Of a stretch of DNA of 42,790 nt, positions 1 to 42,790 are shown piece by piece. Position 1 is the stretch's first letter. Each line of letters starts with the position of its first letter. A model generated the notes under the pieces. The model worked only from the letters and a program-made list of their open reading frames with translations. It had not been told where the DNA came from and searched no databases. The DNA is from Thermoplasmata archaeon (GTDB lineage: Archaea; Thermoplasmatota; Thermoplasmata; Methanomassiliicoccales; Methanomethylophilaceae). A program made the translations under genes and the position numbers. The DNA lies in assembly GCA_015063135.1 (NCBI GenBank), contig SUTA01000001.1, positions 1-42,790 on the forward strand, in the 5' to 3' direction.

Positions 1-12
1 GACCGTCGGAAT

Positions 13-40
13 TAAAAATCAACACCAGCGTTGATTTTTA
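13..40 (+). terminator. Hairpin, probable terminator of an upstream gene
   Basis: An 11-bp perfect stem (TAAAAATCAAC, positions 13-23, pairing with 30-40) closes a 6-nt loop, and the right arm is T-rich. No gene is visible before it in the window, so it most likely ends transcription of a gene that lies outside. Confidence 0.5.
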
Positions 41-172
41 TGTATTGGAGTCACGATGATGTATCGGTACTTAATGCTTCGCATCCGCGCTCGGCCAGGA
101 AAAGATCGGGAATTACCGAACACAGTTCACCCTGGGCGAGGTAATATATATGCGCAAGGCGACGCCCCCGGC

Positions 173-946
173 ATGATATTCACGTTCTCCGGCACGGGAA
201 ACTCCTTCCACGTGGCCCGCATGGTCTCGGATGCCCTGGGCATCCCCAAGGTCGATATCGCCGCCGCCGTCCGCTTCAAGCGCTTCGTGTACGATGCCGG
301 CGGGGAGGACGTGGGGTTCGTGTTCCCGGTCTACTATCTCGGGCTCCCGGACATGGTCAGACGCTTCGCCGAGAACGTCGAGGTCAGGCACGCGGGCAGG
401 GTTTTCTGCATAGTCACCTGCGCAGGCACATCCGGCGGAGCCTACGAGCAGCTCAGGGAGAAGCTCGGGAGGAGGCTCGACGTGTCCGCATGCTACGACG
501 TGCTGATGCCCGAGAACGCCGTGTTCTACGAGGAGGTCCCCACCCGCGAGGAGGCGGCGCCCATGCTGGCCGCGGCCGACGAGGAGGTCAGGGGAATCAT
601 AGAGTCCCTCAAGGCGGGAGACGAGGGGGACCTCAGGAAGAGGCCCGACCCGGCATCCGCGGCGGAATGGTACTCCAGGTACGACGATGACCGCAGGACC
701 GAGAACTTCAGGCTCAACGGGCGCTGCATCGAGTGCAGGATCTGCGAGGACGTCTGCCCCGAGCAGATCATCAAGATCTACCACAGGAAACCCGTCTGGG
801 ACGAGGAGCTCTGCAGCATGTGCATGTGCTGCCTCAACCTCTGCCCGAAGAAGGCCATCGAGTTCGGCCCGGACACGGAGAACAGGGGCAGGTACCACCA
901 CCCCGACTTCGACGAGAGGGTCATAGGGATACCCCTCAAGTGGCGA
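173..946 (+). CDS. EFR1-family flavodoxin/ferredoxin protein
   Basis: The N-terminus has a flavodoxin-like FMN-binding loop (FSGTGNS, residues 4-10), and the C-terminal half has two 4Fe-4S clusters (CIECRICEDVCP from Cys185 and CSMCMCCLNLCP from Cys214). This is the architecture of EFR1 family proteins, cytoplasmic electron carriers whose partners are unknown. I start at ATG 173, because TAATATATA at 142-150 lies about 25 nt upstream and the alternative ATG at 56 would add an uncharacteristic basic stretch of 39 residues. The protein would be 257 aa, ending ...GIPLKW before an in-frame CGA at 944-946. A TAA follows three codons later (956-958), so a conventional call differs by only a few residues. 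Confidence 0.85.
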
Positions 947-2296: not shown

Positions 2297-2303
2297 AACT
2301 CCA

Positions 2304-2416: not shown

Positions 2417-2956
2417 ATGGCTGCGGCCGGAGATGTTTACGAGAGGGAGCTCAAGGCCCTCCTGTCGGGCGACGACAAAGCGCTGACGAAGATGGTAAAG
2501 ACCTGCAACGCGATGGAGAAGGCGGGTTACGACTCGCTCAGGGTGAACCCCTACATGGTCATCAGGGCCGCGGGATCCCTCGGAGTGGACATAGTGGCCC
2601 TGAGGTGGGACTTCGCGTTCCCCATCGAGGTCAAGAGCTCCGCCGACGATGTGCTCCACTTCAGCAAGAGCCAGAGGCTCACGGACCAGGCCAACGGCAT
2701 GCTGGACGACTGCTGCCGCTCCCATCTGGTGCCGATCTACGCCTACAGGTACAAGGGGTTCAAGGGCGACCCCTGGAGGATATTCACCATCCCCACCGAC
2801 CATAAGTTCAAGGGCCGCAACGCGATGCTCTACCGCAGGATACCCAAGATAGACACCTCCGCCAGCGGGAACCTGATAATGAGGTGGAACGAGGGGATGA
2901 AGCTGTCCGACTTCATCATGTACACCGGGATGACCGACTACTCGGCGGGCGAGCGA
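2417..2956 (+). CDS. Hjc-like PD-(D/E)XK nuclease
   Basis: This 179-residue protein carries a restriction-endonuclease-like core: Glu near the start (VYERELKALL), then the segment RAAGSLGVDIVAL, then IEVKSS. This order (E...GxxD...ExK) matches archaeal Holliday junction resolvase Hjc, which cuts four-way junctions, but the protein is longer than the usual 120-140 aa, so the family call is tentative. I start at ATG 2417, 34 nt after a TATA box. The frame reaches CGA at 2954-2956 after ...YTGMTDYSAGE. Beyond it the codons become atypical (AGA, CAT, CGA, TCA) before a TAG at 2999-3001, so I take CGA as the end. Confidence 0.65.
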
Positions 2957-4623: not shown

Positions 4624-7097
4624 GGAAGCTCATCATCGCAATCGCCATCCTGGCGGCCATACTCGCCCCCGCGGCGCTCATGTCGTCCGAGACGGACGCC
4701 GACATTGTGGATGTTAACATCGGCGGCAATGTCGTCCTGGAGGAGGACGTGAAGTACGGCGACGGTTTGAACGTCCTCATCGACCCCGAGACCACCCTGG
4801 ACCTCAACAGCCACACCCTGGAGTTCGGGAAGGACTGCAGGATCGCCATACTCGGCCTCGTGGACATCAAGTGCACCACCGGAGCCCTCATCCTGGGCGA
4901 GGGCACGCTGATGTTCGCCGACGCCCTCGTCATCCCTGCCCTGAACGACGACCTCAAGATCGAGTTCAACGGGACCATATCCATCGACAGGATCGACACG
5001 TCCCTGAAATACAGCTTCTCGCCGACCGTGGAAGGGGAGGGCATAACCGCCGATCACGGCGACATCACGAGCGTCATCAAAGGCCTGGAGGCGGACATCA
5101 CGCTGTCCCTGTCAGACATGGCCCTGAAGTACAACATACAGTTCGACAGCCTGGAGAGGACCGAGCCCCAGTACGGCAAGGAAGGCGAGCACATCTCCGA
5201 CAGGATAATCATAGTCGACGGCGGCCCGGAGGGCTGCTGCAAGCTGGATTTCACCATCGGGCTGACCGGTTTCGACGTGACGGACCTGCAGATATACGAG
5301 GTCACCGTCAAGCTCGTCACGCTGGAATCCGGGGAGACCAACATCTTCAAGGTGAGCGAGATAGGGCCCACCTCGATCGTCGCCAAGGGCGACATCAGGG
5401 GGGTCAAGACCCACATCGGGGAGTTCTCCATGATCCGCGCCGAGAAGGAAGACGTCAAGGAGAGCAGGGTCTTCAAGGACATCGTCCTGGAGGCCGACAT
5501 CAACCTCGCCAACCTGATCGAGGCCCTGAACCCTCTGGGCACCCACGGCAACATCCTCGCCAAGCTGAGCCTCACCTGCGCCGAGGCGGAGATAAAGGCC
5601 GGCATAATCAGCAAGGACCTGACCGACATCTACGTGACCCTCGACGGATCGGATGACGAATTCGCCCTCAAGATGGGATTCACCGACCACAATAATGTGT
5701 ACTCTGTCGTCGCGAACGGATTCGACATCAAGTCCGTCAGCATCAGCACAGATCTGAGGATCAGCATCGAGATCGACATCGCCGACTTGGACATCGTCCA
5801 CAACAATTCCGGAACCTTGGTGGCCGAGGCGAAATTCATCAACCTCGCCCTTTCGGTCGACGAGCTGCGCGTGAAGGCGCTCTACGCCTTGATGGAGGAC
5901 GAGGGGTCCCTCTCGCCTCAGATCATCCTCGACAACTGCGACAGGCTGTCCCTGACCGCCCTGAGCGCCATGCTCGACTACGACGGCGACGGGCACAACG
6001 ACCTGAATATCGGGAATTTCGCCTTCGTCATGGAGGAGGACGCCAGGAAGATAGACACAATCACCATGAACGTCGGCATCATGCTGGGCTCCGCTCCACT
6101 GGGGGACGGGCTGATCGTCCTGGATGCCATGGACCTCACGCTCTACATGGAGACCAACGGGTCCATCGCCGAGACGGTGGATGCCTTCATCCTGCCCCAT
6201 TTCACCGAGGATACCTATGCGTCGATAGAAATGGACGCTGCCAGGTTGATGATGACGTACGCCAAGGATAACGACGTGGTCTCATTCAATGTCTACAGGG
6301 TCAACGAATCATCCCCCAGGGTGGCATCCATGACTCTGGCGATATCCCATTCCATGTACAACGAGACCACCACGCTCACCACGAACCTGGCCTGCCTGGG
6401 CTACCACCTCGAGTTCTTCATCAACAAGCCATTCGAGGACACCGGCGACACCCTCAAGATGAAATTCAGGGCAACCGACGCGAACGCCGCCATAACCACA
6501 TCGTTCGGCGAGGAGGTAACCTTCGGGGCCAACATCTACATGCCCTGGACCCTGGAATTCGACTACGCGGACATAGAGGCGCAGTTCGAGGGCAAGGACA
6601 CTAGCATCGACATCTCCCACGGGGTCATCAGCGTGGATGGCTACGACGGCAGGACCATGGGGATCCTGATCCTCCCCCTCATGATGAGGCTGGGCGACTA
6701 CTCCATCTCCATGAGGCCCAACATATCCATCGGCGAGCTGAACATCTACGTGGAGGGATGGAGCGTGCTCAGGGACCAGTTCCTGGACTGGGAGCTCGGC
6801 ATCCGCAACTTCGACCTGGAGTTGCATCGGAACGACTACAGGCACATCGGCATCAAGGAGTTCGACCTGCGCCTCGCCTACCCGGACGGCTCCACGTTAA
6901 GGAGGTACATCCCATCCCTGGACCTAGACACGGACCTGTCCGGCGAGGACAAGCCGGAGTCATGGATCGATGAGAACGCCATGACCCTGACCTATGTCTT
7001 CACCGCCGGATGCATCGCGGTGCTGGTGGCGATACTCGTCGTCGGCATAAGGAAGCCCCACCTGTTCAAGTTCAACGAGGGAGACGGGGAGGAGCGA
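4620..7097 (+). CDS. Large secreted, C-terminally membrane-anchored surface protein
   Basis: The protein is 825 aa. It starts with a Sec signal peptide (MRKLIIAIAILAAILAPAAL, residues 1-20, likely cleaved near SSETDA). A long beta-rich ectodomain follows, opening with a pectate-lyase-like stretch (IGGNVVLEEDVKYGDGLNV...TLDLNSHTLEF). One transmembrane helix near the C-terminus (VFTAGCIAVLVAILVVGI) leaves a short cytoplasmic tail, KPHLFKFNEGDGEE. I recognise no named family. The start overlaps the MFS gene by 4 nt, implying a shared job at the cell surface. An in-frame CGA stands at 7095-7097 right after the acidic tail; the conventional frame runs 11 codons further to TAG at 7131-7133, through the left arm of a hairpin. 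Confidence 0.75.
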
Positions 7098-9551: not shown

Positions 9552-10424
9552 TCGGGAGCCCTTCCTCCTCATAAGCACCACCGAGATGACAAAGAACAGG
9601 GCGGTGACCCCCAGCACGTACAGGAGCGATGCGGCCATATCGAACTGGAAATCCCCCATGTAGAGGTCCACCCCCATATCCTTCCTGAATGTGGCGGCAT
9701 CCTCAGGGGAGAACACCTCGTCCATGGGCCCGGAGCACAGGAACTGGCGGAACACCGCGGCCATATGCGTGGCGGGGACCAGATTGCCGAGGAAGAGCAC
9801 GACCCCGGGCAGATTGACCATTGGGAGGTATATCCCGAAGAGCAGGCCGATCATCGAGCTCATCAGTATGGAGAAGCCGGTGAATGCGCCCTGGCTCTTG
9901 AAGAATGATGTTATGGCGAAGAGGATGATGGCCGCCGACAGGGTAGAGGGGACCAGGAGCAGGAAGCACGCCAGGATGCCTGAGGCATCCAGGACGCAGC
10001 CGGTCGCGCAAAGGTAAAGCAGCGCGATGACGAGGGTGGATGCGCTGACGATCATCCCCACGTAGAAGGCGCTGAGTATGTAGCTCGCAGACAGCTCCGC
10101 CGGTCCGATGGGCGCGCTCCCCAGGTCCATGTCCTTGCCGGCCGCCCTGTCCTCCACCATGACCTGGAGGGCCTGCACGCACGAGGTCACGGACACGATG
10201 CCGATGATGCCGGCCATCACCCACGAATCTATCAGCGCCGGCACCTGCGCGTCCGTGATGAACTCCCAGTCCCCGGAATACATGCTGTTGATGAGCACGT
10301 TTCTCAGGAAGAGGAGGTACAATGCGACCACGATGAAAGCCGTCAGGAACGAGAACGCGACTGTCGCCCTGTCCCTGAAAAAGCACAGGGTGTTCCTCTC
10401 AGCGAGCATGAGCACCCTGTTCAC
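9552..10424 (-). CDS. ABC-2 type transporter permease
   Basis: This 290-aa membrane subunit has about six TM helices in the ABC-2 arrangement, including a first TM after an RDRATVAFSF segment and the conserved GxxLPMVNLPGVV region. It pairs with the ATPase encoded just upstream; the GTG start overlaps the ATPase stop (GTGA at 10421-10424). The complex probably exports a small molecule, polymer or lipid. The frame meets CGA at 9554-9552 after ...VVLMRRKGS, a typical positively charged cytoplasmic end, and a TGA five codons later (9534-9536). Confidence 0.85.
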
Positions 10425-11437: not shown

Positions 11438-12574
11438 ATGTTGGAAATGGCCAAGCGCATCCTGATCTACACGATGTCGTCCGGCGACGGACACAACATG
11501 ATCTCCAAGATGCTGAAGGAGAACTTCGAGAAGTACCGCCCCGGCTGCGAGGTCATCATCCTGGATTACTACAAGGACTACCCGTCCCCCATCAGGTCGT
11601 TCATCGGCGAGAAGTTCTACAGGTTCACCATGGGGCACGCCCACTGGCTCTACTACATCTACTACAACGTCTATCGTCATGACGCTCCTCCCAAGAGGTA
11701 TCCCATAGGCATGTGGTACGCCCATCTCGGCAAGTACCGCAGGGTCCTGAGGACCGTGGACGAGTTCAGGCCCGACTTCATCATAGGCACCCACATGTTC
11801 CACCCGATAGGCCTGACGAACCTCAAGAACCGCGGCAAGCTGGACGTGCCCTTCTACAGCATAGTGACTGATTTCACAGTGTATCCGCTTTCGGAGTTCG
11901 GCCTCGGGGTGGAGAAGATAATCACCCCCTGCGAGGAGCTGAAGGACGGGCTGATGAAGCTGGGATACAGGGAGGACCAGATAGCCTGCCTCGGATTCCC
12001 CGTGCGGGTGGAGAGGCCCGCCGAGCGTCCGAACCGCGGGAAGGGGAGGCTCTCGCTGATGATAATGGCTGGCCCCGGGAGGATAAAGACCATCGACAGG
12101 GACCTCATGGACCTGCTGGAGGCCGATCTGGACATCCGCATCGACGTCCTGAACGGCAAGGACGAGAGGCACAGGAGGAAGATTGACAGGATGATCTCGA
12201 AGGCCGCACCGAGGAACACCATCATCGAGAACCACGGGTTCGTGGACGATGCGACCTATTTCGAGATCATGAACGGATGCGACATCATGGTCTCGAAGTG
12301 CGGGGCAAACACGCTCTCCGAGGCCATAAAGCTGGGAAAGGTGGTGATCACCAGCCCCGACCTCGTCGGCCAGGAGCTCGAGAACCTGGAGTACTTCACC
12401 GAACGCATCCCCATCTTCCGCATCGACAAGAAGACAGAGATCCTGGACGTCCTGAGGGAGAACACGTTCGACGATGCTTTCCTGGACGATTACTGGGCCA
12501 GGACCGATGGGATCATACCCAAGGAAGGCTACATGAGGTACGTGGATTTCCTGTACGGCCCCGAGGAGCCCCGA
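11438..12574 (+). CDS. MGDG-synthase/GT28-like glycosyltransferase
   Basis: The 378-residue protein has an N-terminal MGDG_synth-type domain (SSGDGHNMISKMLKE at about residues 13-27, aligned with the xGxGHxxAAxAL motif) and a C-terminal GT-B nucleotide-sugar domain (GFVDD...MNGCDIMVSKCGANTLSEAI). These enzymes transfer sugar from UDP- or GDP-sugar to a diacyl or dialkyl glycerol; here an archaeal ether-lipid acceptor is likely. A TATA box (ATTTTTATCC, 11413-11422) favours ATG 11438 or 11447. The frame meets CGA at 12572-12574 after ...FLYGPEEP. The next 14 codons run into the TATA box of the following gene and reach TAA at 12614-12616, so CGA is the sensible end. Confidence 0.85.
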
Positions 12575-17618: not shown

Positions 17619-18506
17619 TCGGAACTCCCCGCCATCGCGATCCGCGGCGGCGCCGGAGATGCCTATCTCCATGGCCTTCAAGAGGTGCTTCTCGGCCTCC
17701 TCGGTGCGCCCCATCTTGATGAGCTCGCCGGCGATGCCCTGGTGGAGGCTGACGAGTATGTCCGCGTCGTCCAGGGCGCGGTACTCGGAGATGCCGTCGA
17801 GGATGGCGATGGCCGCCTCCGCGTCCTCGATGTACCTCTCCGGCTGGCCTATGCCGAGGTAGGTCTCCCCCCTTGAGACCAGCGCGAGCACCAGGGATTC
17901 CGGCTCCTCCATGGCCTCGGAGTCGAGGAGGCCCGCGGAGATGTCTATGGCCTTGGTGTAGCACTCTATGGCCGCGTCCGTCTCGTTCAGGGAGTCGTGG
18001 GCCTCGCCAAGGAGGTTGAGGATCTCTACCCTGCGGTTCTGCGTCCACGGGTCCGAGGGGCCCTCGAGGAACTCCAGGGCGCGCTCCAGGAATGGGACGG
18101 CCAGCTCGCCCTGCTCCGAATCGAGCAGGTCGTGCGATGACTCCACCGCCATCCTGACCAGCGACCTGCGGTCGAAGTAGCCGGAGGACTCCTTCAGGCG
18201 GGGCAGGTAGCGGATCGCCTCCAGGTAGTACTCGGACGGATCGGAGCCGGACTCGAAGGCGATGCAGCCCATCTTGGTGAGCATCTTCACCATCAGCCCA
18301 GGGTCGGCGCCCCCGGCGGCGGAGGCCATCTCGTACGCGGACTCCAGGTCCTCCATGGCGGAGGTCCCGTAGCCCAGCATGTGCAGCACGCAGCCCCTGC
18401 TGACGTAGGCGTCCATGAGCTCCGGGCCGCCGCTGGACTCCAGCGCGTTGACGCGGTCGTTGCATTCCTCCAGCGCTCTCTCCAGATGGGCGTCCGAGGC
18501 GTTCAT
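17619..18506 (-). CDS. TPR-repeat protein
   Basis: The protein is 295 aa, built of tetratricopeptide-like helical pairs (for example LNLLGEAHDSLNETDAAIECYTKAI and VSRGETYLGIGQPERYIEDAEAAI), and probably acts as a cytoplasmic protein-protein scaffold. A TATA box (TTTATACG, 18526-18533 minus strand) gives a leaderless ATG at 18506. The only CGA in the frame is at 17621-17619, after ...AADRDGGEF. Beyond it the frame stays open through the helicase promoter into the helicase, so a standard caller would report one protein of about 1005 aa. I treat them as two genes. Adjacency suggests the TPR protein may assist the helicase. Confidence 0.65.
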
Positions 18507-22629: not shown

Positions 22630-23305
22630 CATCGTGGCCGGCGCATGCGCACCCTACTACCCCTCGGTCAGCGCGGCGATGGCCTCCAGGAAGGAGTACT
22701 TCTACTCCTGGAGGGCGAGGGGCGGCAGCATAGAGATCACGCTGTCGGACTATCTGGACGGCGCGCCGGAAGAGGTGCTCTGCGACGTGGCGGAGATGGT
22801 CTGCCGCAGGTCAAAGAAGCTTCAGTGGGGGGAGCCGGAGTCGTTCCTCGAGTACGTCACCGACCCGGACTTCATCGCCGAGTACCGCCCCGTCTACATC
22901 AAGAGGTCCAGGAACCTCACCAGGTCCGACATGGGGGAGCACTTCTGCCTCATGGACTCCGTGCAGAGGCTGCTGGACGATGACATGCTCCAGCCCGGGG
23001 ACATAGAGAACGCCTACATGTCGTGGACGGTCAGGGACACCACCCGCAGGCTGGGGTTCTGCAGCACCATGTTCAGGGTCGTCGGGATATCCTCCGTGCT
23101 GGATTCGCCGGACGTCGACGACGACATGAGGGACTACGTCGTGTACCACGAGTGCCTCCACCTGCGCCAGCGCTACAGCGGCGATTCGAGGCACCACGAC
23201 TCCAGGTTCCGCTCCTGGGAGCGCGCCTACCCGGATTGGAAGGGGATAGAGGCGAGGCTCGGGAGGCTGCACCAGCAGAGGACGGCCGGGAAAGGACGCC
23301 GCCGA
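22610..23305 (+). CDS. YgjP/SprT-like zinc metalloprotease
   Basis: The protein is 231 aa. The zinc site is YVVYHECLHLRQ (HExxH) followed about 14 residues on by HDSRFRSWERAYPDW, the arrangement of YgjP/SprT-like metal-dependent hydrolases. The function of the archaeal members is unknown; SprT relatives degrade proteins, some bound to DNA. It is the last of the four overlapped genes that begin with the kinase-GNAT fusion. CGA at 23303-23305 follows ...RTAGKGRR. The frame then runs 37 codons through the TATA box of the next gene (near 23372-23382) and stops at TGA 23417-23419, inside that gene. Confidence 0.75.
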
Positions 23306-23411: not shown

Positions 23412-24299
23412 ATGGCTGACGAGAAGGGCTTCGTTTTCCACACCCACAACGGGGACGTAGACATGGACATCCGCCAGGTGAAGGACCTGGCGGCCAAGGG
23501 CGACCCGGACGGGCTGTACGCCCTCGCCATGGCGTACCTGTACGGATGGGACGTCGACGAGGACCGCGGGCTCGGCTTCGAGTACCTGGAGAAGGCCGTG
23601 GAGGCCGGGCAGGTGGACGCCAAGGCGCTCATGGTCAGCCTCTACATGCAGGGCGACTACGACGGGATCGACAGCGACAAGGCCGCGGAGTACTCCATCG
23701 AGGCCGCAGCGGAGGGGATCCCGGAGGCCCAGCTCTACGCCGGCCTGGCCTACATGGACGGAGTGTCCGTCGAGCAGGACTACGCGGAGGCCGCGAGGCT
23801 GTTCCGCCTGTCCATGAACCAGGGCAACCAGGAGGCCCGCACGAACCTCGGGTACCTGTACCAGAACGGGCTGGGCGTGGACAAGGACGAGGCCAAGGCG
23901 TTCAAGCTGTACCGCACATCCGCCAAATCGGGCAACGTCAGCGGGATGTTCCACATGGGGGTCTGCTGCGAGTTCGGCATAGGCACCGAGGTGGACTACG
24001 TACAGGCCAAGGAATGCTACGAGGAGGGCGCCAAGATGGGCGACCCCTTCGCCGCGGAGAGGCTGGGGTTCCTGTACTCGCAGGGTCTCGGAGAACTCCC
24101 CGCGGACGCGGAGAAGTCGTTCGAGTGCTTCCTCCAGGGCGCCATGGGCGGATCCGTCTCCGCCATGTACATGACCGGCTACATGTACCTCCACGGGATA
24201 GGCACCGAGAAGTCCGAGGAGGAGGCCGTGAAATGGCTGAAGATGGCCTCAGACAACGGCTACGAGGAGGCGGTGGAGCTCCTCACCATCCTCGCCCGA
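23412..24299 (+). CDS. Sel1-like repeat protein (first of a tandem pair)
   Basis: The protein is 295 aa and contains about seven Sel1 repeats of 35-37 residues (for example ALAMAYLYGWDVDEDRGLGFEYLEKAVEAG and TNLGYLYQNGLGVDKDEAKAFKLYRTSAKSG), forming an alpha-solenoid. It has no signal peptide. A TATA box (near 23372-23382) lies some 30 nt upstream. The frame carries a single CGA at 24297-24299 after ...AVELLTILA. A TATA box starts 3 nt later and the frame continues open into a second Sel1 gene, so a conventional caller would fuse them into one 569-aa protein. The junction residues (CFYTSQPMVATIP) are translated promoter and show no repeat pattern. Confidence 0.75.
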
Positions 24300-24301
24300 T
24301 G

Positions 24302-24309
24302 TTTTTATA
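24302..24309 (+). promoter_or_regulatory. TATA box between the two Sel1 genes
   Basis: TTTTTATA begins 3 nt after the CGA of the first Sel1 gene and lies about 30 nt before ATG 24339. It marks an independent transcription start inside what would otherwise be a single reading frame. Confidence 0.6.
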
Positions 24310-24338
24310 CCAGCCAGCCCATGGTCGCGACGATACCA

Positions 24339-24992
24339 ATGAGCGACAGCATCCAGGACAGGGCGGAGGCCGGCGAGGCCGAGGCGCAGTACCAGATGGG
24401 ACTGAACTACATCTACGGCACCGACGTGCCCAAGGACGCCTCCAAGGCAGCGTTCTGGTTCTCCAAGGCCGCTGAGCAGGGGTACCTCCCCGCCAAGCGC
24501 GAGATGGGCATCCTCCTGGCATCCGGCGAGGGCGTGGAGCCCGACATGGAGAGGGCCGTGAAGTACCTCTCCGAGGCCGCAGACCAGCTCGACCCCAGCG
24601 CGCTCTACCACCTGGGGATCATGTACGAGTCCGGCCTGGGCGTGGACAAGGACCTCCAGAAGGCCGTCAGGATGCTCGCGTACGCGGCCGAGATGGGCTA
24701 CCCCGGGGCCGACGTCGACGCCGAAAGGGTGGACAACGTGCTCACCGAGGAGCGCAACAGGAAGCTCAGGGCGAGGCCGATCCTCAAGCTGCAGATCTCC
24801 GACGTGGACGTGGAGGCCGCATGCTGCAAGCGCATGCTCGACGCCCTCCTGGCGCAGGACATCGTGTTCATAGACTCGTACAAGGGGCCGGCGCTCCTGG
24901 GCGAGGACAAGGACGGCATGGACGCCGTGCTGGAGAGCTGCCCGTTCTGCGGCGCCAGGATCCAGCTGATCCCCCACGACACCAAGTTCCGA
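24339..24992 (+). CDS. Sel1-like repeat protein with C-terminal Cys motif
   Basis: The protein is 217 aa (MSDSIQDRAEAGEAEAQYQMG...). It has three Sel1 repeats in the first 120 residues and a C-terminal region with two cysteine sites (ACCKRM and SCPFCGARIQL), perhaps a small zinc knuckle. The chosen ATG lies about 30 nt after a TATA box; ATG 24321 is an alternative. The single CGA in the frame is at 24990-24992, after ...LIPHDTKF. Beyond it the frame passes a short palindrome (24994-25006) and the TATA box of the next gene before TGA at 25119-25121, so CGA is the natural end. Confidence 0.7.
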
Positions 24993-25014
24993 AACCCCCT
25001 GGGGGTCTCCCCCC

Positions 25015-25023
25015 TTATTTATA
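25015..25023 (+). promoter_or_regulatory. TATA box of the 183-aa coiled-coil protein gene
   Basis: TTATTTATA lies about 25 nt before ATG 25046 and just after a GC palindrome. It is inside the conventional extension of the Sel1 gene, showing that this extension is not coding. Confidence 0.6.
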
Positions 25024-25045
25024 CCTCGAAGGATATCATCCGACC

Positions 25046-25597
25046 ATGGATCCAGATTATACGCTCGAGGACGCAGTCAAAGTCCTCAACAAGACCGTCG
25101 ACAGGAAGGCCGCCGAGATAGCGGACATCGAGAAGAAGATAAGGCGCTACAAGAATGAGGAGCGCAGGGAGGCCGCGCAGGAGCTCGTCGACTACCTCAA
25201 GGCCGACAGGATCGCGTACATCTCCGTCATCGCCGACATGACCGACGACGACACCCTCCTCGAGGGCATCGACACCGACACCGTCGTCGTCGACTGCCCC
25301 AGGCTCTACGACGAGTACCTCTCCGGCCTGGATGCGGATGATCTGGAGAACGAGCTCGATGCCGAGGAGATCCGCGCGGACTACTGCGACGAGGTCCTCG
25401 AGATCATGTGCGAGGGCATCGGCCAGGAGGCCCTGGAGAACAAGAAGATGATCAAGGCCCTCATGGACGACCCCGAGGCCTGCAGGATCATCGGAGAGTA
25501 CATCTTCTACGACGACGCCCTCTACGGACTCCTCAACGAGATCGTCCAGAAGAAGAAGGCAAAGAAGGACAAGAAGAAGTCCAAGAAGAAGGACTGA
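25046..25597 (+). CDS. Acidic coiled-coil protein with Lys-rich tail, unknown
   Basis: This 183-aa protein begins with a heptad-like helical stretch (VKVLNKTVDRKAAEIADIEKKI). The acidic middle is rich in Asp (ADMTDDDTLLEGIDTDT), and the tail is made almost only of lysine (KKKAKKDKKKSKKKD). The tail could bind nucleic acid or acidic protein. It is probably leaderless. The TGA is 2 nt before the GTG of the next gene, another coiled-coil protein, so the two are likely co-translated. I recognise no family. Confidence 0.75.
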   Translation: MDPDYTLEDAVKVLNKTVDRKAAEIADIEKKIRRYKNEERREAAQELVDYLKADRIAYISVIADMTDDDTLLEGIDTDTVVVDCPRLYDEYLSGLDADDLENELDAEEIRADYCDEVLEIMCEGIGQEALENKKMIKALMDDPEACRIIGEYIFYDDALYGLLNEIVQKKKAKKDKKKSKKKD

Positions 25598-25599: not shown

Positions 25600-26271
25600 G
25601 TGCCCGGAAGCAAGTACGAGCGCGAGCTCAGGTTCATAGACACGGAGGTCCGCAGGCTCAGGGGCCAGCTCCAGAACATGGCGGAGTTCGTCCCCGCCGA
25701 CCCTGCAGAGGCTGCGAAGAAGGCGGAGCAGGTCGATCAGATCGAGGTGCGCATCTCGGAGCTCCTGGCCAGGAAGAAGGAGATCGAGGACTCGTTCATC
25801 GAGTGCGGCCTCGACGTCCCGGACATCTCTAGGAACCTGAACGCCAACACCTGCCGCGACAACGCGCAGTACGATTCAACGGTCGAGGCCAAGGAGGGCG
25901 ATGGATCCAAGCCCAAGTCCGGCCTCGACGACCTCGGCGAGGAGATCTCCTCCATAACCGCCGAGATCAACGAGCTGGAGGTCCTGCTCATGAAGGCCGA
26001 GCTAGACGACACCGGCGAGGCCCCCAAGCTCAGGATGAGCATCAACGCCCTCCGCGACAGGCGCGAGGACCTGATCCACGAGATGAAGGAGGCCAGGACC
26101 GCCCCCAAGGAGGAGCCCAAGGCCGACGACGCCACCTCCAGGAGGCTCGACGCCCTGGAGGCCGATAACCGCGCCATAAGGTCGCAGCTGTCCGGCGTCC
26201 GCTCCGACATGATGGACATCAAGGAGCAGCTCAGGGAGCTGCTGCAGGCCCTCGGACGCGAGGACGACCGA
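25600..26271 (+). CDS. Coiled-coil protein, unknown
   Basis: This 223-aa protein is rich in Glu, Lys, Asp and Arg with long predicted coiled coils (LRFIDTEVRRLRGQLQNM, ISSITAEINELEVLLMKAEL, and LDALEADNRAIRSQLSGV near the end). I start at GTG 25600, directly after the previous stop. The only CGA is at 26269-26271 after ...LQALGREDD. The frame otherwise continues 42 codons to TGA 26398-26400 on top of the convergent gene, in Arg/Pro-rich noise. The CGA lies one base from the convergent gene's own CGA. It is probably a structural or scaffold partner of the preceding coiled-coil protein. Confidence 0.75.
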
Positions 26272-26272: not shown

Positions 26273-26704
26273 TCGGCGGTAGAAGCTGGACCAGTTGTCC
26301 TCGCCCTTCTCGTCCTCGAACTTGGGGACGCCCTCGGAGAACCCGTCCCAGTCGATCGGCTCCCTGGAGAGTATCACATAGGAATCGTTCTTCCCGTTGA
26401 ACTTGATGGCATCGTTGGACACCATCAGGTCGACGTCGAAGAGCGCGATGAAATCGGCGTCCTGATACTCCCCGTCCGGGTCCAGGATGCTCCTGTCCCT
26501 GTGGATGCTGGTGTACTTCAGGACCTTGGTGCCCAGGAGGCCCTTCACGGTCTTCTTGACGCGGTCCAGGAAGTACCCGTTGCCGATGTCCAGGGTCCAG
26601 AACTCGATGTTCTTCTCGGCCCCGACGTCCACCTTCTCCCAACCGGTGAAATCATCCTTCCTGGTCCCCGCGTAGATCCTGTACTGAGCCTCCCTGGATA
26701 TCAT
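26273..26704 (-). CDS. Small soluble protein, unknown
   Basis: This 143-aa protein (MISREAQYRIYAGTRKDDFTGW...) has mixed alpha/beta character, no signal peptide and no membrane segment, and I do not recognise it. A TATA-like CTAAATAG around 26725-26732 (minus strand) is 25 nt upstream of ATG 26704. The single CGA in the frame is at 26275-26273 after ...NWSSFYR. The conventional frame would continue for 13 residues rich in Arg, Pro and Ala to TGA 26231-26233, lying over the opposite gene. Confidence 0.65.
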
Positions 26705-26781: not shown

Positions 26782-27654
26782 ATGGGTCGCATGTTCTCCA
26801 AAGCCGTAGGGAAAGCGATAGGCTACACCCGCCCCGTTGTCATATCCATCAGGATGCAGAACGGCGACGTCAAGACCGACACGGCCACGTACACCGTGAT
26901 CAACGACGACGGATGGGCGATTACCGCGGCTCACATCATGGACAGCATGGTCAAATTTCAATCCGACCAGAACAAGGTCAAGGAGATCGCCGAGATCAAC
27001 TCCAAGAGGCCGAAATCCGGGGCGATAAAGTTAGAACCGGACACCATCGTCAACCACTCGTTCTGGTGGGGCTGGGACGGGGTGGCCATAACCAAGGCCT
27101 TCGTCAACAGGCAGATGGACCTAGCCGTGGTCCACCTCCAGGGCATCGGAGACAGGGTGAAGGACTTCCCCGTGCTGGCAGACCCGGAGAGGCCCCGCCC
27201 CGGCACCAGCCTTTGCAGGCTCGGCTACGGGTTCTGCAACATAACGACCACCTTCGACACGGCATCGGGCAACTTCCGCATCCCCCTCATGAAACCCGAG
27301 GAGCTGATTTTCCCGAACGAGTGCATGCACACCCGCACCATCGACCGCGGGATGACCAAGGACAACGAGTTCAGGATGGTGTACGTCGAGACGTCCACCC
27401 CGGGCATCGGCGGCCAGTCCGGCGGCCCCATCATCGATACCGAGGGCAGGCTCCATGCCATGCAGGTCAACACCGCCCACCACCCCCTGGGATTCCATCC
27501 CACTGCCGAGTACGATGGGAAGACCGTGGTCGAGAACCAGTTCCTGAACCTCGGCGTGGGGCTCAGCGTCGGATCGATAAGGCAGATGCTCGATTCCAAG
27601 AACGTCCGCTACTCCGCCGAGGGCGACGAGTCCGGCTACAGGATCACAGGCCGA
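26782..27654 (+). CDS. Trypsin-like (S1C/HtrA-type fold) serine protease
   Basis: This 290-residue protein has a complete catalytic triad: His in ITAAHIMDS, Asp in NRQMDLAVVHL, and Ser in GQSGGPIID. Trypsin-fold proteases cut proteins; there is no signal peptide, so this one is probably intracellular. No PDZ domain follows. ATG 26782 is used; ATG 26791 is also in frame and better spaced from the TATA box CATATATACG (26761-26770). The frame meets CGA at 27652-27654 after ...SGYRITG, then TGA three codons later (27664-27666). The gene is convergent with and slightly overlaps the HAD gene. Confidence 0.85.
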
Positions 27655-33808: not shown

Positions 33809-34990
33809 TCGCAGGCGGAGTACGGGTACCAGGAACACGGTACGCTTGGACGGGTCCCTGACCCTGGAGGCCATGAGCTCCTGCACGGCGTTATAGTCCT
33901 CCGGCGACACCGCATTGCCGGCGTCGTGATGGATCAGGACGTCCTCCCACCGCATGTATCCAGCGTAAACGGGGTTGTGAAGGACGTTGCGCAGGTTGAA
34001 CTTGTTCCAGGGGTTGCCCTTCCTGGTGAGCTCGCCGGATGAATTGAGCTCGTAGCATATCATCTCCATGGTGGTGCCTCCGAGGTACATCGAGAAGATC
34101 CTGGAGACCACGGACAGCTCCTCCGGGACGGCAACCAGCTTGCCGCCCTCCAGGGCGTACCCGAACGGCGGTGTGAACCCCATGGTCCTCTTGCCGGAGT
34201 CCGCCTTCTCTAAAGTCTCCGCCTTCTCGCGCATGCCCATGTACGTGCGCTCGCCCGTCTGCTCGCTCTCCAGCTGCGCTATCCTCATTATGATGTCCGT
34301 GGCGAACCTGCCCACGGCGTTAGATGTGTCGAGGTTCTCGTTGACGGATGCGAACTTCTTCCCGTTCCTCTCGAGGGTCTCCATCATGGTCATGAAATTG
34401 CGGAAGTTCCTATGGATACGGTCCATCTTCATGACCAAGAGCACGTCCCAGTCGCCGATCTCCTCCATCATGCGGCGGTACGAGGGGCGGTTGTCGTTCC
34501 TGCCGGAGTAGCCGTCGTCGATGTACACCTGATGGACGGCCCACCCCTGGGAGACACAGAACTCCCTCAGCAGGGCCTCCTGGGCGCCGAGGGAGTACCC
34601 CTCCATGGCCTGCTCCTCGGTAGACACCCTGATGTAGACGGCGGCGCGCCTGCTCTCGGTGTCCTCGAGGTGGTCCTCCGGGCCGGACACAGAGACGAAC
34701 GCCTTCCCCTCGCGCTCCAGCCTGCGCAGGAGCATCGCGTAGTTCATCTGGGTGGTGTGGACTATGCTGATCCTCGCGACCACGAGCACGTCCCAGTTGT
34801 CCATCTCCGCCATCATGCGGATGTAGCCCGGGCGCTTGTTGTCCCTGCCGGATACGCCTATGTCCTCGTAGACGGCCGCGACGTCCCATCCCTCTGCCAG
34901 GCACTGGTCCTCCAGGACCATCCTCTGGTCCTCGGCGGAGGGGCCCTCCTGGCCCGCGGGGGGCGTCCTGATGTAGAGTGCCGCGCGCAT
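33809..34990 (-). CDS. Serine recombinase with duplicated, partly dead resolvase domain
   Basis: The protein is 393 aa. Residues 1 to about 115 form a degenerate resolvase domain (MRAALYIRTPPAGQ...): the catalytic Ser position of the RVST motif is lost, and the DRIHR-type Arg motif reads SIVHT. Residues about 116-265 form an intact resolvase domain (AAVYIRVSTEEQ, MKMDRIHRN), followed by a Recombinase domain (MGFTPPFGYAL...). No zinc ribbon or long coiled coil follows, so it is shorter than most large serine recombinases. It starts 1 nt after the stop of the second recombinase gene. The single CGA is at 33811-33809 after ...FLVPVLRL; TAA follows five codons later (33794-33796). Confidence 0.82.
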
Positions 34991-38130: not shown

Positions 38131-38592
38131 ATGCGCAGCCTGTACATCATGCTCCTCTCCATCGCGGCCGTTTCGGCCCTGGCGGTTACGGTCATGGTGC
38201 TCGCGTTCCCAGACCACAACGGGGAGCTGAGGATGTCGCCCGAAGTGGGGGACTACTTCATCATCGATGTAAACGGCAAGTCCGAGCAGAGGTTCACGGT
38301 GGCGGAGATCCTGGAGGACGCTTACAACGTGGAGATCAAGATCGGCGACGATACTTCCACGTTGAAGATGAAGCACGACGACTTCTATCGCTACATCTAC
38401 CTCGAGAAGGACAAGTCCCAGGGGATGGAGATAAACGGGCGTGTGATCCTCGACACGAATTACGGCAAGCGCATGTGCACCCTGTACGCGCAGCAGATGG
38501 GGACCTACTGGGCGGATGACAACGGCGTGATCTACCAGTCGTTCGTCGGAGGGGTGGGCCACAAGCTGCTGAAGACGTCGCTGTTCTACCGA
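38131..38592 (+). CDS. Small membrane-anchored or secreted protein, unknown
   Basis: This 153-aa protein has one N-terminal hydrophobic helix (LYIMLLSIAAVSALAVTVMVLAF), either a signal anchor or a signal peptide, and a beta-rich domain outside. No lipobox Cys is seen. A TATA box (CAATATAAC, 38098-38106) is 25 nt before ATG 38131. The frame meets CGA at 38590-38592 after ...LLKTSLFY. Six more codons would follow to TGA 38611-38613, overlapping the Shine-Dalgarno region of the peptide synthetase gene. It is the first gene of a likely unit with the peptide synthetase, but no function can be assigned. Confidence 0.7.
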
Positions 38593-38614
38593 ATTCTATT
38601 GAGGGGTTTTTGAA

Positions 38615-41600
38615 ATGAGGCTCGAGCTGAACGATTCGCAATACGATATACTGGCTACGTGCCTTTCCGATACGGATTCCACCTCCTACAACATGCCGCT
38701 GTTCGAGGAGCTCCCTCCCGGGACGGACGCCGCGAGGCTGGAATCGGCCATCAGGGCCGCGGTCTCGGCGCATCCGATGCTGACCATGAAAGTGTCCTCG
38801 GATGGGGAGGGGAGCTTCCTGGAGCCTGCCGACGGCATCGACTTCGAGACGGTCGAGATGGCAGAGGGCTTCGACCCGTGCGGCCTGGTGAGGCCCTTCG
38901 ACCTGGGGAAGGGGGCCTGCAGGTTCCGCATCGTCAGGTCCGGAGGAGGGCTGTCCCTGTTCATGGACATCCACCACATCGTCATGGACGGCATGTCCCT
39001 CAAGATCCTCGCCAGGGACATCGGGGCGGCGTACGCCGGCAGGGCGGTCAAACCGGAGGACCCCCCAGCGGCCCCGGAGGCCGGGGAGCCCGACTGGGGG
39101 TTCTACGACTCGTTCCTGTCGGCGGTGGAGTCCCCCTCGCTCCCGCTGCGCGACAACTACATCGGCGGTCCCGGCTCCGCCGCGGTGTCCAGGGCGTTCC
39201 GCGTCGACGCCGAGCGCCTGAGGCGCTTCTGCAAGGACCGCGGGATCAGCAGGACCGCGTACTTCGCCGTCTCCATGGGATACGCCCTGGAGCGCATGGA
39301 TCCGAAGGGCTACGCCTCCATGGGCGTAGTCATGAACTGCAGGGACGGGTCCGACAAGGAGTCTGTGGGGATGATCGCCCGCACGCTGCCGCTCGCCGTC
39401 AGGTTCGACTGTTCCGTGAGCGATTCCATGGCGGCCGCCAAGGGCATCCTGGACGGATGCATGGCGAACCCCGTCGCATACTCCAAGGCCCTGGCCAGGT
39501 ACGGCCTCGGCGACGAGGTCATATTCGCCTACCAGGGCGACGTGACCGATTACTCCATGGTCGCAGACCATGACACCGCCCCCAGGATGCTGAGGGAGGC
39601 CATGTCCCCCGCATCGGAGAAGATCAGGGCCGAGGTCGCGGACAGCGGGGATGGATACATCATAACGATAACTTACCGCACGGATTACTACACCGAGGGC
39701 ATGATGGCCTCGCTGGCATCCATATTCGCCAGGACCGCGGAGCAGGCCCTGGGCTGCGAGCGGTTCCAGGACATAGACATCATCGGCGACCCGGAGGAGG
39801 CCCTGAAGGGATTCAACGACTCCGACAGGGAGCAGGACCTCTCAATCACGCCGATCAACATGATAGAGCGCTGGATGCGCGAGAGGCCGGACTCCGTCGC
39901 GGCGGTGTTCAAGGACGCTAGCATCACCTACGGGCAGCTGGACTCGCTCACGTCCAGGATTGCCGCGTACCTGGCCGGCAAGGGCATCGGCAGGGAGGAC
40001 TTCGTGTCCGTGCTGATCCGCCGCGGCCTCGGCATGGTCACATGCCCGGTGGGCATCCTGAGATCCGGGGCGGCGTACCAGCCGCTGGACCCCTCCTACC
40101 CCAAGGAGAGGCTCAACTTCATGGTGAAGGACTCCGGGGCGAAGCTGGTCATAGCCGACCGCGACCTGGTGGGGCTCATCGACGAGTACGATGGGGACAT
40201 CCTTTACACCGACGAGCTGGAATCGCTGCCCGATGGGAGCGTGGACGCCGTCCACGGCCCGGGCGATGTGTTCACCATCCTCTACACCTCCGGGACCACG
40301 GGCACCCCCAAGGGCTGCATCCTGGAGAACATGAACCTCGCGTCCGTGATCAACCACGACACCGCGATCACCGGGCGCGACGTGGATTCCAGGACGGCCG
40401 CATACGCCAGCTTCGGATTCGACGCCAGCATGATGGACACCTTCGCATCTCTCGCCACCGGCGGGACGCTTTACATCATACCCGAGGACATGAGGCTGGA
40501 CCTCGGCGCCATGGACCGCTACTTCAACGAGAACTCCATCACCCACGCCTTCATGACCACCCAGGTCGGGAGGCAGTTCATCACCATGACCACCTGCCGC
40601 TCCCTGAAGCACTTCCTCGTGGGAGGGGAGAAGCTGGTCCCGGTGAACCCCCAGGACTGGGTGAAGTTCTGGAACATCTACGGGCCCACGGAGGCGGCGG
40701 TGTACGTGCTCACCGACCCGGTGACAGACGACAACCCCCTGTGCCCCATAGGATGGCCCAACGCCAACGTGAGGGCGTACATCGTGGACTCCGCCAACAG
40801 GAGGGTCCCCGTCGGCGTGCCCGGCGAGCTCATCGTCTCCGGGCCCCAGGTGTCCAGGGGATACCTCAACAGGCCGGAGAAGACCGCCGAGGCGTTCATC
40901 AAGAACCCGTTCTGCGACAGCGGCCCCCACGTCAGAGCCTACCGCACGGGGGACACCGTCAGATGGCTGCCCGACGGCAGGGTCGAGTACATCGGCAGGG
41001 GCGACGGCCAGGTGAAGGTCAGGGGATTCCGCGTGGAGCTGACCGAGGTCGAGGGCGTGATACGCAAGTTCCCCGGGATCGAGGACGCCACCGTCGCGGC
41101 CTTCGACTCGCCCGCGGGAGGGAAGTTCATCGCCGCGTACGTCGTCTCCAAGGAGAAGATAGACGTCAAGGCCCTCAACGAGTTCATAGCGGGGCAGAAG
41201 CCCCCGTACATGGTCCCCGCGGTGACCATGCAGATAGACAGGATCCCGCTCAACGTCAACAGCAAGGTGGACAGGAGGAAGCTCCCGGTGCCCACCTTCC
41301 AGGCCGAGGACGACGAGAAGCCCCAGAACGACGTCCAGGAGAGGATATTCAAGATAGCGGCCGAGCTGCTGGGCACGGACGCCTTCGGCATCGGCACGGA
41401 CCTGCGCGCCGTGGGACTGACGTCGATCACCTCGATCCGCCTGAGCGTCCTCCTGTCGGAGGCGTTCGACATCGACATGGCCGTCTCCGACCTGAAGGGG
41501 GACTGCACAGTCAAGGCCATCGAATCGTTCATAGGTTCCAAGCACGGCCACGAGACCTTCGAGAGGAGGGACGACTACCCGCTGTCCAAGATCCAGGAAG

Positions 41601-42790
41601 GGCTGTTCGTCGACTGCGTCGCGAACCCCGGCACCACCATCTACAACGTGCCGTTCCTGCTGAGGCTGGACGGCCCGGTGGACATCGCGAGGCTAAAGGA
41701 TTCGGTCGTGGCAGCCGTGGAGGCCCATCCTCACATCAAGGCCCGCCTGTTCACCACCAAGGACGGCGAGGCCCGCCAGAGGAGGATGGACGACGACCCG
41801 TTCACCGCAGACGAGATAGAGGACATCGAGGCCGGGAGCATCGACGACGTCATCGGCGGCCTGGTCAGGCCCTTCGAGCTCATCGGCGGCAGGCTGTTCC
41901 GCTTCGCCGTCGTCAAGGCTAAGGAGGGCACCTACCTGTTCACCGACGTCCACCACCTGTACATGGACGGCACGTCCATGAACGTGTTCCTCGACTCCAT
42001 CACGGCCGCCTACCTGGGGGAGAGGCTCGAGAGGGAGAGGTTCTCCGGGTTCGACGTCGTTCTGGCCGAGGAGAGGCGCCGCACGCCCGAGGCCCTGGCG
42101 GAGGACCGCGCCTACTACGATTCCCTGCTGGGCGGCTGCGAGACCGACATCCTCCCCACCACCGACCTCTACGAGAAGGGCCACGGCCTCGGGAGTGTCG
42201 TCATGGACGGCGCGGAGATCGCCACGATGGAGAGGTACTGCGAGGCCAACGGCGTCACCATGAACGGGTACATGTGCTCCGCCCTCGGGTTCACACTGTC
42301 CAAGTTCTGCGGCACCCGGGAGCCCGTTTTCACCACCGTCTACAGCGGGAGGAACGACTCCCGCACCATGGACACCGTGGCCATGCTGGTAAGGACCACC
42401 CCGGTGGTCTGCAGGATCGCGGGGAGCACCCCCGAGTACATGAGGACGGTCTCCAAGACCCTGATGGACAACATGGCCCACGACTCCATGTCGTTCGCCG
42501 AGATATGCAAGGAGTACGGCTTCCGCCCGGACATCCTGTTCGTCTACCAGGGCGACATGTTCACATTCGACGGCCTCTGCGGCATGCATTCCGAATCGAT
42601 CAACCTGCCCAACGACACCGCCAAGACCCCGATCACCTACTCACTGTGGGTCGTCGACGGCAGGCTGCACCACGTCTGCGAGTACGACCGGGCCAGGTTC
42701 AGCCACGCCTTCGTGGAGAGCTTCGTCAGGGCGTTCGACAACGCCATTGTGAGGATGATGGGGCACACCGACCCCAAGGACATCGACCTC
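38615..42790 (+). CDS. Nonribosomal peptide synthetase, 5' part (C-A-PCP-C...)
   Basis: At least 1392 residues, running off the window end. The first condensation domain has HHIVMDG (about residue 119). The adenylation domain has LYTSGTTGTPKG (about 556), YGPTEA (about 689), the YRTGDTVRWLPDGRVEYIGRGD block (shown in part) and NSKVDRRK. A carrier domain has GLTSI with the phosphopantetheine Ser (about 936). A second condensation domain has HHLYMDG (about 1113). By alignment to GrsA the A-domain pocket reads roughly D-A-M-F-L-G-I-V-Y-K, suggesting an aliphatic amino acid such as Ile, Leu or Val; this is tentative. Starting with a C domain suggests an acyl or upstream-loaded donor. GAGGGG lies 8 nt before ATG 38615. 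No CGA in the frame. Confidence 0.92.
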   Translation, partial: MRLELNDSQYDILATCLSDTDSTSYNMPLFEELPPGTDAARLESAIRAAVSAHPMLTMKVSSDGEGSFLEPADGIDFETVEMAEGFDPCGLVRPFDLGKGACRFRIVRSGGGLSLFMDIHHIVMDGMSLKILARDIGAAYAGRAVKPEDPPAAPEAGEPDWGFYDSFLSAVESPSLPLRDNYIGGPGSAAVSRAFRVDAERLRRFCKDRGISRTAYFAVSMGYALERMDPKGYASMGVVMNCRDGSDKESVGMIARTLPLAVRFDCSVSDSMAAAKGILDGCMANPVAYSKALARYGLGDEVIFAYQGDVTDYSMVADHDTAPRMLREAMSPASEKIRAEVADSGDGYIITITYRTDYYTEGMMASLASIFARTAEQALGCERFQDIDIIGDPEEALKGFNDSDREQDLSITPINMIERWMRERPDSVAAVFKDASITYGQLDSLTSRIAAYLAGKGIGREDFVSVLIRRGLGMVTCPVGILRSGAAYQPLDPSYPKERLNFMVKDSGAKLVIADRDLVGLIDEYDGDILYTDELESLPDGSVDAVHGPGDVFTILYTSGTTGTPKGCILENMNLASVINHDTAITGRDVDSRTAAYASFGFDASMMDTFASLATGGTLYIIPEDMRLDLGAMDRYFNENSITHAFMTTQVGRQFITMTTCRSLKHFLVGGEKLVPVNPQDWVKFWNIYGPTEAAVYVLTDPVTDDNPLCPIGWPNANVRAYIVDSANRRVPVGVPGELIVSGPQVSRGYLNRPEKTAEAFIKNPFCDSGPHVRAYRTGDTVRWLPDGRVEYIGRGDGQVKVRGFRVELTEVEGVIRKFPGIEDATVAAFDSPAGGKFIAAYVVSKEKIDVKALNEFIAGQKPPYMVPAVTMQIDRIPLNVNSKVDRRKLPVPTFQAEDDEKPQNDVQERIFKIAAELLGTDAFGIGTDLRAVGLTSITSIRLSVLLSEAFDIDMAVSDLKGDCTVKAIESFIGSKHGHETFERRDDYPLSKIQEGLFVDCVANPGTTIYNVPFLLRLDGPVDIARLKDSVVAAVEAHPHIKARLFTTKDGEARQRRMDDDPFTADEIEDIEAGSIDDVIGGLVRPFELIGGRLFRFAVVKAKEGTYLFTDVHHLYMDGTSMNVFLDSITAAYLGERLERERFSGFDVVLAEERRRTPEALAEDRAYYDSLLGGCETDILPTTDLYEKGHGLGSVVMDGAEIATMERYCEANGVTMNGYMCSALGFTLSKFCGTREPVFTTVYSGRNDSRTMDTVAMLVRTTPVVCRIAGSTPEYMRTVSKTLMDNMAHDSMSFAEICKEYGFRPDILFVYQGDMFTFDGLCGMHSESINLPNDTAKTPITYSLWVVDGRLHHVCEYDRARFSHAFVESFVRAFDNAIVRMMGHTDPKDIDL

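Follow-up and report, generated by a model that had tools for sequence, protein, structure and literature searches.

CGA as a fourth stop codon, apparently dedicated to termination, in an uncultured archaeon related to gut methanogens

In the literature examined, sense codons that have become stop codons are described from organelles only (PMC6821328, PMC12574857); these reports give UCA and UCG in Sphaeropleales mitochondria, UUA and UUG in Marsupiomonadales mitochondria, and UUA and UCA in peDinoflagellate plastids. The subject here is a stretch of 42,790 bases, hereafter the window (bases 1-42790 of contig C29), from the draft genome (40 contigs, 1.86 Mb, 87% complete) of an uncultured archaeon that is related to gut methanogens and belongs to the order Methanomassiliicoccales. 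In this genome the arginine codon CGA is almost certainly a dedicated stop codon, no longer encoding arginine and used about as often as UGA. Features in common with the organelle cases are a sense codon found at gene ends only, the apparent lack of the cognate tRNA and, possibly here as well, an altered release factor (PMC6821328, PMC12574857). By contrast, the organelle cases concern small genomes and bacterial-type release factors, whereas here the genome is that of an archaeal cell, the factor, aRF1, is of the eRF1 type, and the codon is CGA.

The bacterial reassignments of CGA/CGG and of AGG found with Codetta are similar in that they involve rare arginine codons and changes in tRNAs; they differ in that those codons came to encode other amino acids, rather than stop (PMC8629427). 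By its own account Codetta cannot detect sense-to-stop changes, and the Codetta screen left 218 archaeal sense codons uninferred (PMC8629427), so a case like a CGA stop may have escaped it. A paper on Methanomassiliicoccales genomes (PMC4153887) treats UAG usage, and its main text has no match to CGA. Among the best-ranked titles and abstract openings in PMC, with subscription papers and preprints outside the scope, no CGA stop in an archaeon or bacterium was recognised, nor any cellular sense-to-stop change, nor autoregulation of aRF1 by an in-frame stop.

An earlier note on the window, made from its letters, had proposed that 16 genes end in CGA. All 16 triplets were verified in frame at their window coordinates, and a codon-model gene call that permits CGA as a stop ends genes at exactly these 16. 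That call gives 31 genes, ending in CGA (16), TGA (13) and TAA (2), with no TAG, as the note had also said; its 13 TGA ends hold, while its approximately 33 genes and 4 TAA ends do not fully match, short or weak genes having been dropped by the call, and a further TAA end, at 28864, is seen in the orthologue comparison. In the sample as a whole, comprising the window and 20 further stretches (414,025 bases, 22% of the genome), 346 genes were called, with ends distributed as TGA 165, CGA 160, TAA 15 and TAG 6. The call is partly circular, because CGA was used as a stop; the orthologue, whole-sample and frame comparisons are less so. With respect to TAG, the coding score remains positive (+0.24) after the 6 TAG 'ends', and a pyrrolysyl-tRNA synthetase match over the cut-off is present at G000 C18:72418-73092 (L307), so that UAG is probably read as pyrrolysine in this genome, alongside the use of CGA as a stop.

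The sequence following CGA has the character of sequence following a stop. Past the CGA, 157 of 159 genes have a negative coding score, with a mean of -0.80 compared with -0.90 after TGA, in accord with the loss of coding character reported for the window; when eight other rare codons were treated as pseudo-stops, the mean score after them was -0.12 to +0.30. The possibility that CGA still encodes arginine, but is used very rarely and clusters in C-terminal tails that evolve rapidly, gains something from the rarity of CGA in a second genome of the same genus, G053 (30 in 197,385 codons), but is scarcely credible given that the score falls after CGA as it does after TGA, with no such fall after the eight other codons, that the standard code would fuse nine CGA-ended genes to the next gene, and that CGA tends to lie on the stop column of the relative, as follows.

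G053 is a single-contig genome that has tRNA-Arg(UCG); 939 of its genes, called with standard stops in 60 stretches of 20 kb (TGA 859, TAA 66, TAG 14), served as the reference. Of 155 orthologues kept, 20 were left out of the end count, either because the match finished more than 12 residues short or because the stretch ended. The remaining 135 ends in the genome under study are CGA (63), TGA (68) and TAA (4), and the G053 partners of the 63 CGA ends stop at TGA (59) or TAA (4). CGA lies exactly on the partner stop column in 37 of 63 cases and no more than 5 codons away in 56, the corresponding values for TGA being 40 and 65 of 68; outlying CGA ends (-9, +8, +14, +15, +19, +23 and +34) were retained in these counts. 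A smaller set of 75 ends gave CGA 36, TGA 38 and TAA 1, with a single internal CGA in 26,822 codons. In this set the gene with the +23 offset carries its CGA at residue 350 of the 351 in its match, and for this reason it probably does end at that codon. The absence of CGA inside genes, claimed for the window, also holds in essence, there being only 5 internal CGA in 47,433 aligned codons, all in the last 16 residues of the G053 protein (at residues 453/461, 494/494, 350/351, 265/265 and 289/304). The same alignments contain internal TGA (2), TAG (3) and TAA (1), the TAA and two of the TAG being in a single 160-residue match.

The CGA ends of the window are as follows, with offsets, in codons, from the G053 stop column.

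944..946, forward strand, CGA stop of a 4Fe-4S protein gene (173-946; Pfam Fer4_7); no G053 orthologue in the stretches fetched
2954..2956, forward strand, CGA stop of a Hjc-like resolvase gene (2417-2956; Pfam Hjc); offset 0 from a G053 TGA
7095..7097, forward strand, CGA stop of gene 4620-7097 (no Pfam match); no orthologue compared
9552..9554, reverse strand, CGA stop of an ABC-2 type transporter gene (9552-10424; Pfam ABC2_membrane_3); no orthologue compared
12572..12574, forward strand, CGA stop of an MGDG (monogalactosyldiacylglycerol) synthase-like gene (11447-12574; Pfam MGDG_synth); no orthologue compared
17619..17621, reverse strand, CGA stop of a tetratricopeptide repeat (TPR) gene (17619-18506; Pfam TPR); offset -3
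22627..22629, forward strand, CGA stop of a radical SAM (S-adenosylmethionine) gene (20962-22629; Pfam Radical_SAM_N); offset +1
23303..23305, forward strand, CGA stop of gene 22610-23305 (no Pfam match); offset +8, a weak fit
24297..24299, forward strand, CGA stop of gene 23412-24299; offset -9, a weak fit
24990..24992, forward strand, CGA stop of gene 24339-24992; offset 0
26269..26271, forward strand, CGA stop of gene 25600-26271 (no Pfam match); offset +1
26273..26275, reverse strand, CGA stop of gene 26273-26704 (no Pfam match); offset 0
27652..27654, forward strand, CGA stop of a trypsin-like peptidase gene (26791-27654; Pfam Trypsin_2); offset 0 from a G053 TAA
31385..31387, forward strand, CGA stop of an archaeal ATPase_2 gene (30020-31387; Pfam ATPase_2); offset -1
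33809..33811, reverse strand, CGA stop of a serine recombinase gene (33809-34990; Pfam Resolvase/Recombinase); offset -1
38590..38592, forward strand, CGA stop of gene 38131-38592 (no Pfam match); no orthologue compared

Eleven of the 16 are thus comparable (offsets 0 in four, +1 in two, -1 in two, and -3, +8 and -9), of which 9 lie no more than 3 codons from the G053 TGA or TAA, the exceptions being those at 23303 (+8) and 24297 (-9); the five without an orthologue in the stretches are those at 944, 7095, 9554, 12572 and 38590. Read with the standard code, the frame of the TPR gene continues into a separate helicase gene (15489-17561; Pfam DEAD_2/Helicase_C_2), and gene 23412-24299 is fused to the next, the fused open reading frame (23412-25121, 569 codons), of which gene 24339-24992 is the second gene, matching Pfam Sel1. 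Genes 25600-26271 and 26273-26704 converge on the sequence CGATTCG, where each of them ends in a separate CGA, with one base between the two.

Housekeeping genes are among those affected. In the genome studied CGA ends the genes for aRF1, Pelota, ArgS, PheS and adenylate kinase; the C termini of aRF1 (...GGIAAILRYKVS, then CGA, which is overlapped by the ATG of the next frame, argS) and of Pelota (...GAILRYRME, then CGA) both stop at canonical AILRY tails. The NCBIfam matches of CGA-ended genes likewise extend to the CGA or close to it, ending at residue 207 of 208 in adenylate kinase, 325 of 327 in Kae1, 498 of 499 in PheS, 258 of 261 in NAD synthase and 586 of 586 in ArgS, for which the model is covered up to its position 569 of 569. 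For hydroxymethylpyrimidine (HMP) kinase the match over the cut-off covers the N-terminal domain only and, of ten CGA-ended proteins compared with NCBIfam, two had no match and two had matches below the cut-off only.

The frame and context of CGA bear on two further explanations. The earlier note had asked that a systematic artefact, with TGA misread as CGA, be considered, and the window does come from a draft assembly; however, such an error would not give a pattern restricted to one frame and to the ends of genes, the other half of the genes continue to end in TGA, and relatives whose genomes were assembled separately have CGA ends too, so that the chance of an artefact is negligible. In the called genes CGA occurs 1,544 times in the +1 frame and 7,135 times in the +2 frame (8,679 in total), hence the trinucleotide itself is not depleted. 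The preceding base also differs, being A in 26% of TGA ends (ATGA, 43/165) as against 4% of CGA ends, which likewise speaks against misreading; a low frequency of A before CGA is expected if ATGA overlaps with a following start cannot change, the overlaps not having been checked individually. CGATG is found at 18 of 160 CGA ends and TGATG at 12 of 165 TGA ends.

C-to-U editing, known from plant mitochondria, could in principle convert terminal CGA to UGA in the mRNA, as the earlier note had alternatively proposed, and the predominance of TGA among the G053 partners (59/63) would accord with it. The expressions 'CGA stop codon' or 'CGA as a stop' occur in three papers on plant mitochondrial genomes, which may refer to such editing. 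Unless the editor were aware of frame, however, the 8,679 CGA in the other two sense frames would be edited as well, and the 160 CGA ends lack a strong flanking motif: the base at -1 is C or G in 89%, resembling third codon positions, and that at +4 is T in 41%, G in 26%, A in 23% and C in 10%. Since editing would also leave unexplained both the missing CGA-reading tRNA and the CGA codons within aRF1 genes of relatives, which are described below, this proposal is not supported and is considered very improbable.

The evidence regarding the tRNA is as follows. The genome under study yields 43 tRNA matches over the cut-off, for 42 of which ARAGORN assigns an anticodon; the arginine anticodons in this set are TCT, CCT, GCG and CCG, with TCG not found. 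The 43rd match (L030, G000 C7:41813-41917), of 105 bases, was not called by ARAGORN and has CAT in the anticodon region, perhaps with an intron. When 102 genomes of the family were searched by blastn with tRNA-Arg(UCG) of G053, the genome under study gave only the GCG paralogue. In the genus, the tRNA adjoins a gene that, from its sequence, we take to be HypE-like in 16 of 16 loci with a close match, and also a gene of approximately 165 residues in 11 of the 16. Both flanking genes are present on contig C25 of the genome studied, with about 380 bases and no tRNA between them; as the interval is assembled, the absence at the syntenic site is not due to an assembly gap. Possible remnants of the tRNA at this site amount to matches of 6-11 bases (ten best rows) and were judged to be chance. 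These results agree with the suggestion, made from the window alone, of a fourth stop accompanied by loss of tRNA-Arg(UCG).

Elsewhere in the genus, all 20 tRNA-Arg(UCG) examined have an altered anticodon arm, with a 31-39 mismatch in 16 and C33 for the usual U33 in 4. Neither change occurs in 29 other tRNA-Arg(UCG), of which 3 have another weak stem pair. The C33 cases are L263, L264, L265 and L278, from four genomes of the genus. Such an altered tRNA would fit poor competition with aRF1. Other genomes of the genus in the tRNA search gave no match (G052, G058 and G065) or, in some, including G074, the GCG paralogue only; three of these genomes, G050, G054 and G055, were inspected further, and each has a divergent tRNA-Arg(TCG).

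Comparison with relatives indicates that CGA ends are not confined to the one genome. Eighty named loci surrounding the aRF1 gene, the best of 125 in a single GTDB scan, were aligned to G053 genes and assigned to groups A-D by identity, by column 64 of the aRF1 alignment and by tree; group end counts take ends no more than 6 codons from the G053 stop and exclude aRF1. In a posterior mean site frequency (PMSF) tree of 79 aRF1 proteins, the protein of the genome studied is sister to 20 rows of group A (fork 100/98; A 95/88), while B (100/100) and D (99/98) each form one group. Group A, the rest of the genus (21 loci), has 2 CGA in 68,174 codons outside aRF1, with ends TGA 172, CGA 17 and TAA 13 (CGA 17/202). 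Group B, 11 Methanomethylophilus-like loci, has 3 in 31,080 codons, with ends TGA 88, CGA 10 and TAA 7 (CGA 10/105), giving 5 in 99,254 codons for A and B combined. Group C (34 other loci, Met or Leu at column 64) uses CGA for 72 of 4,826 arginines, and group D (14 loci, Lys, Arg, Asn or Gln at column 64) for 129 of 2,335, CGA ends numbering 1/252 and 1/94, respectively. Gene calls with CGA as a stop gave 26 of 684 genes ending in CGA in G053 and 37 of 334 in G012, of group B, with coding character lost after 24 of the 26 and 36 of the 37. Taken together, these counts put CGA at about 4-11% of gene ends in the other members of the genus and in one related genus.

In these relatives the CGA codons that do occur inside genes are concentrated in the gene for aRF1. 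Group A aRF1 genes contain 20 CGA, each of them at column 78 (loci L083-L098, L125, L131, L153 and L157), a column that the remaining copy does not cover, while those of group B have CGA at column 25 in 11 of 11 (L117, L122, L123, L127, L129, L132, L135, L138, L139, L141 and L147). Because the columns differ, either one lineage shifted the aRF1 CGA or the site arose or moved on more than one occasion. Both sites fall in the early part of the gene, where an autoregulatory stop would be expected. CGA is also enriched in aRF1 in group C (52/765 arginines; Fisher p 4.5e-15, related copies being counted as independent), with 42 of the 52 in the first third of the gene; in group D usage is ordinary (20/326; p 0.61 on the same basis), with 11 of 20 in the first third. 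The codon preceding the column-78 CGA is GCT or TCT in all 19 group A copies that have it; in G053 these make up 923 of 16,348 alanine codons and 345 of 9,399 TCN codons, and conservation of this sort, where substitutions would be silent, points to a regulatory element. In group B the column-25 CGA follows TAT in 6 of the 11 copies and TAC in the other 5. The frame of the relatives' aRF1 stays open, without change of frame, across the CGA, internal Shine-Dalgarno and slippery sites not having been searched. Outside groups A and B, the aRF1 gene of L145 has CGA at columns 27, 99 and 306 (other genes, 0 in 3,191 codons) and that of L114 at columns 27, 50, 78 and 261 (other genes, 1 in 1,585). 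The aRF1 of relatives ends in TAA, TAG or TGA in 77 of 78 cases; in L111, CGA stands at the usual stop column, followed immediately by TAG, possibly a CGA stop outside groups A and B. In the genome under study there is no in-frame CGA in aRF1, column 78 being CGC and column 25 AGG.

It is likely, from this pattern of conservation, that the in-frame CGA of the relatives acts as an autoregulatory stop. aRF1 is not known to be a homologue of RF2. The arrangement is nonetheless like that of bacterial prfB, in which the gene for a release factor (RF2) carries an early stop codon that its own product reads (PMC12421855). It differs in that prfB relies on a programmed frameshift past the stop, whereas the CGA of the relatives' aRF1 lies in frame, tRNA-Arg(UCG) presumably providing the read-through. 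According to the same report, bacteria that have lost the prfB motif make higher use of RF2-specific stops (PMC12421855); similarly, the species studied here, a heavy user of CGA stops, has lost the aRF1 CGA.

Two proteins of the genome studied match the eRF1_3 domain, namely aRF1 and Pelota, implying a single candidate release factor. In an alignment with 79 other aRF1 copies, one of which is gapped at columns 65-66, it has Asn65 and His66, where the 78 others have Lys followed by Asn (73) or Ala (5). By HMMER alignment these residues (K65N and N66H) correspond to human eRF1 residues 69 and 70, and Met64 to Arg68. With the genome studied and G053 included, column 64 is Met in 62 copies, Leu in 3, Lys, Arg, Asn or Gln in 14 basal or outgroup copies, and a gap in one. 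Simulations of human eRF1 have Arg68 hold the NIKS loop and help to reject C as first base, the Arg68Ala change being predicted to cut the first-base C penalty from about 6 kcal/mol (for CAA, CAG and CGA) to 1-2 kcal/mol (PMC5681627). The earlier suggestion of an altered aRF1 would fit these changes: K65N and N66H are found only in this species, beside Met at the Arg68 position, but Met or Leu at column 64 also occurs in lineages without CGA stops. In the aRF1 of L085 the NIKS motif, whose lysine is said to contact the first stop-codon base, reads NIRS; 3 of 10 ends at that locus are CGA. With regard to the ribosome, the two h44 stretches found do not differ between two relatives that use CGA stops and one that does not; the 530 loop pattern gave no match in any of them.

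The sequence shows CGA placed at the ends of genes and almost missing from their interiors, with tRNA-Arg(UCG) not found, also at its syntenic site; how CGA may be read, and how this may have arisen, we infer. The single aRF1 probably reads CGA as a stop, helped, it may be, by the Met or Leu of the clade at the Arg68 position and by K65N and N66H in this species. In an ancestor, aRF1 would have been a weak reader of CGA, competing with tRNA-Arg(UCG), and CGA would have been purged from nearly all genes except that for aRF1. There, an in-frame CGA could have led to termination when aRF1 was plentiful and to read-through by the tRNA when it was scarce. Changes of UGA to CGA at gene ends would then have been tolerated and, in the lineage studied, the aRF1 CGA and the tRNA would have been lost, in either order, with CGA spreading to half of the genes. 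Taken as a whole, an account in which CGA is a fourth stop read by aRF1, arisen through autoregulation of aRF1 and followed by loss of the tRNA, is likely on the comparative evidence. To our knowledge, no cellular main genome with four stop codons has been described before. That this is one, with an aRF1 CGA that was self-limiting, a genus tRNA weakened and kept mainly for read-through, and both lost in this species, is considered fairly likely.

Alternatively, CGA may be unassigned, such that ribosomes stall at it for want of a tRNA and are freed by Pelota and its partners, without recognition by aRF1. The failure to find tRNA-Arg(UCG) and the presence of Pelota are compatible with such stalling, which likewise predicts that CGA is absent from the inside of genes. 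However, half of the genes, housekeeping genes included, would then end in stalls, presumably at a cost; the relatives have CGA ends while carrying the tRNA; and the conserved CGA in aRF1 itself indicates the release factor as the reader. An unassigned codon is accordingly regarded as unlikely.

Several observations weigh against recognition of CGA by aRF1, or against loss of its sense meaning. The draft state of the genome (40 contigs, 87% complete) limits the claim that the tRNA is absent, and the tRNA search is not exhaustive, since tRNA-Tyr and tRNA-Trp were recovered neither in the genome studied nor in G053, yet the same search found TCG in G053. Relatives with CGA ends still carry tRNA-Arg(UCG), which in group B looks normal even though CGA ends are used. 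In G053 under standard stops, 22 of 675 genes hold CGA, 16 with it in the last 25 codons, but in 6 (aRF1 and five others) it lies farther from the 3' end; in G012 coding character persists past a mid-gene CGA in a single gene other than aRF1 (L298:5704-7231). As to the factor, the Arg68 simulation concerns the human protein and an Ala mutant, and K65N and N66H could be drift. Met64 alone was rejected as the cause, because group C has Met or Leu at this position with CGA as a rare sense codon and as the end of only 1 in 252 genes. No group shows enrichment of CAA in aRF1, although tolerance of C as first base predicts that CAA would behave like CGA. Small subunit (SSU) rRNA was not found in the genome studied.

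In practical terms, standard gene calls on this genome would overrun in about half of the genes, giving spurious tails and fused genes. A natural eRF1-type factor, possibly with altered first-base specificity, may be useful for studies of stop codon recognition. A cellular case, if true, would show that the genetic code can gain a stop codon. Moreover, the family appears to contain living intermediates, with CGA respectively a rare codon, a minor stop alongside a weakened tRNA, and a main stop without the tRNA, such that the codon capture and ambiguous-intermediate models become directly testable.

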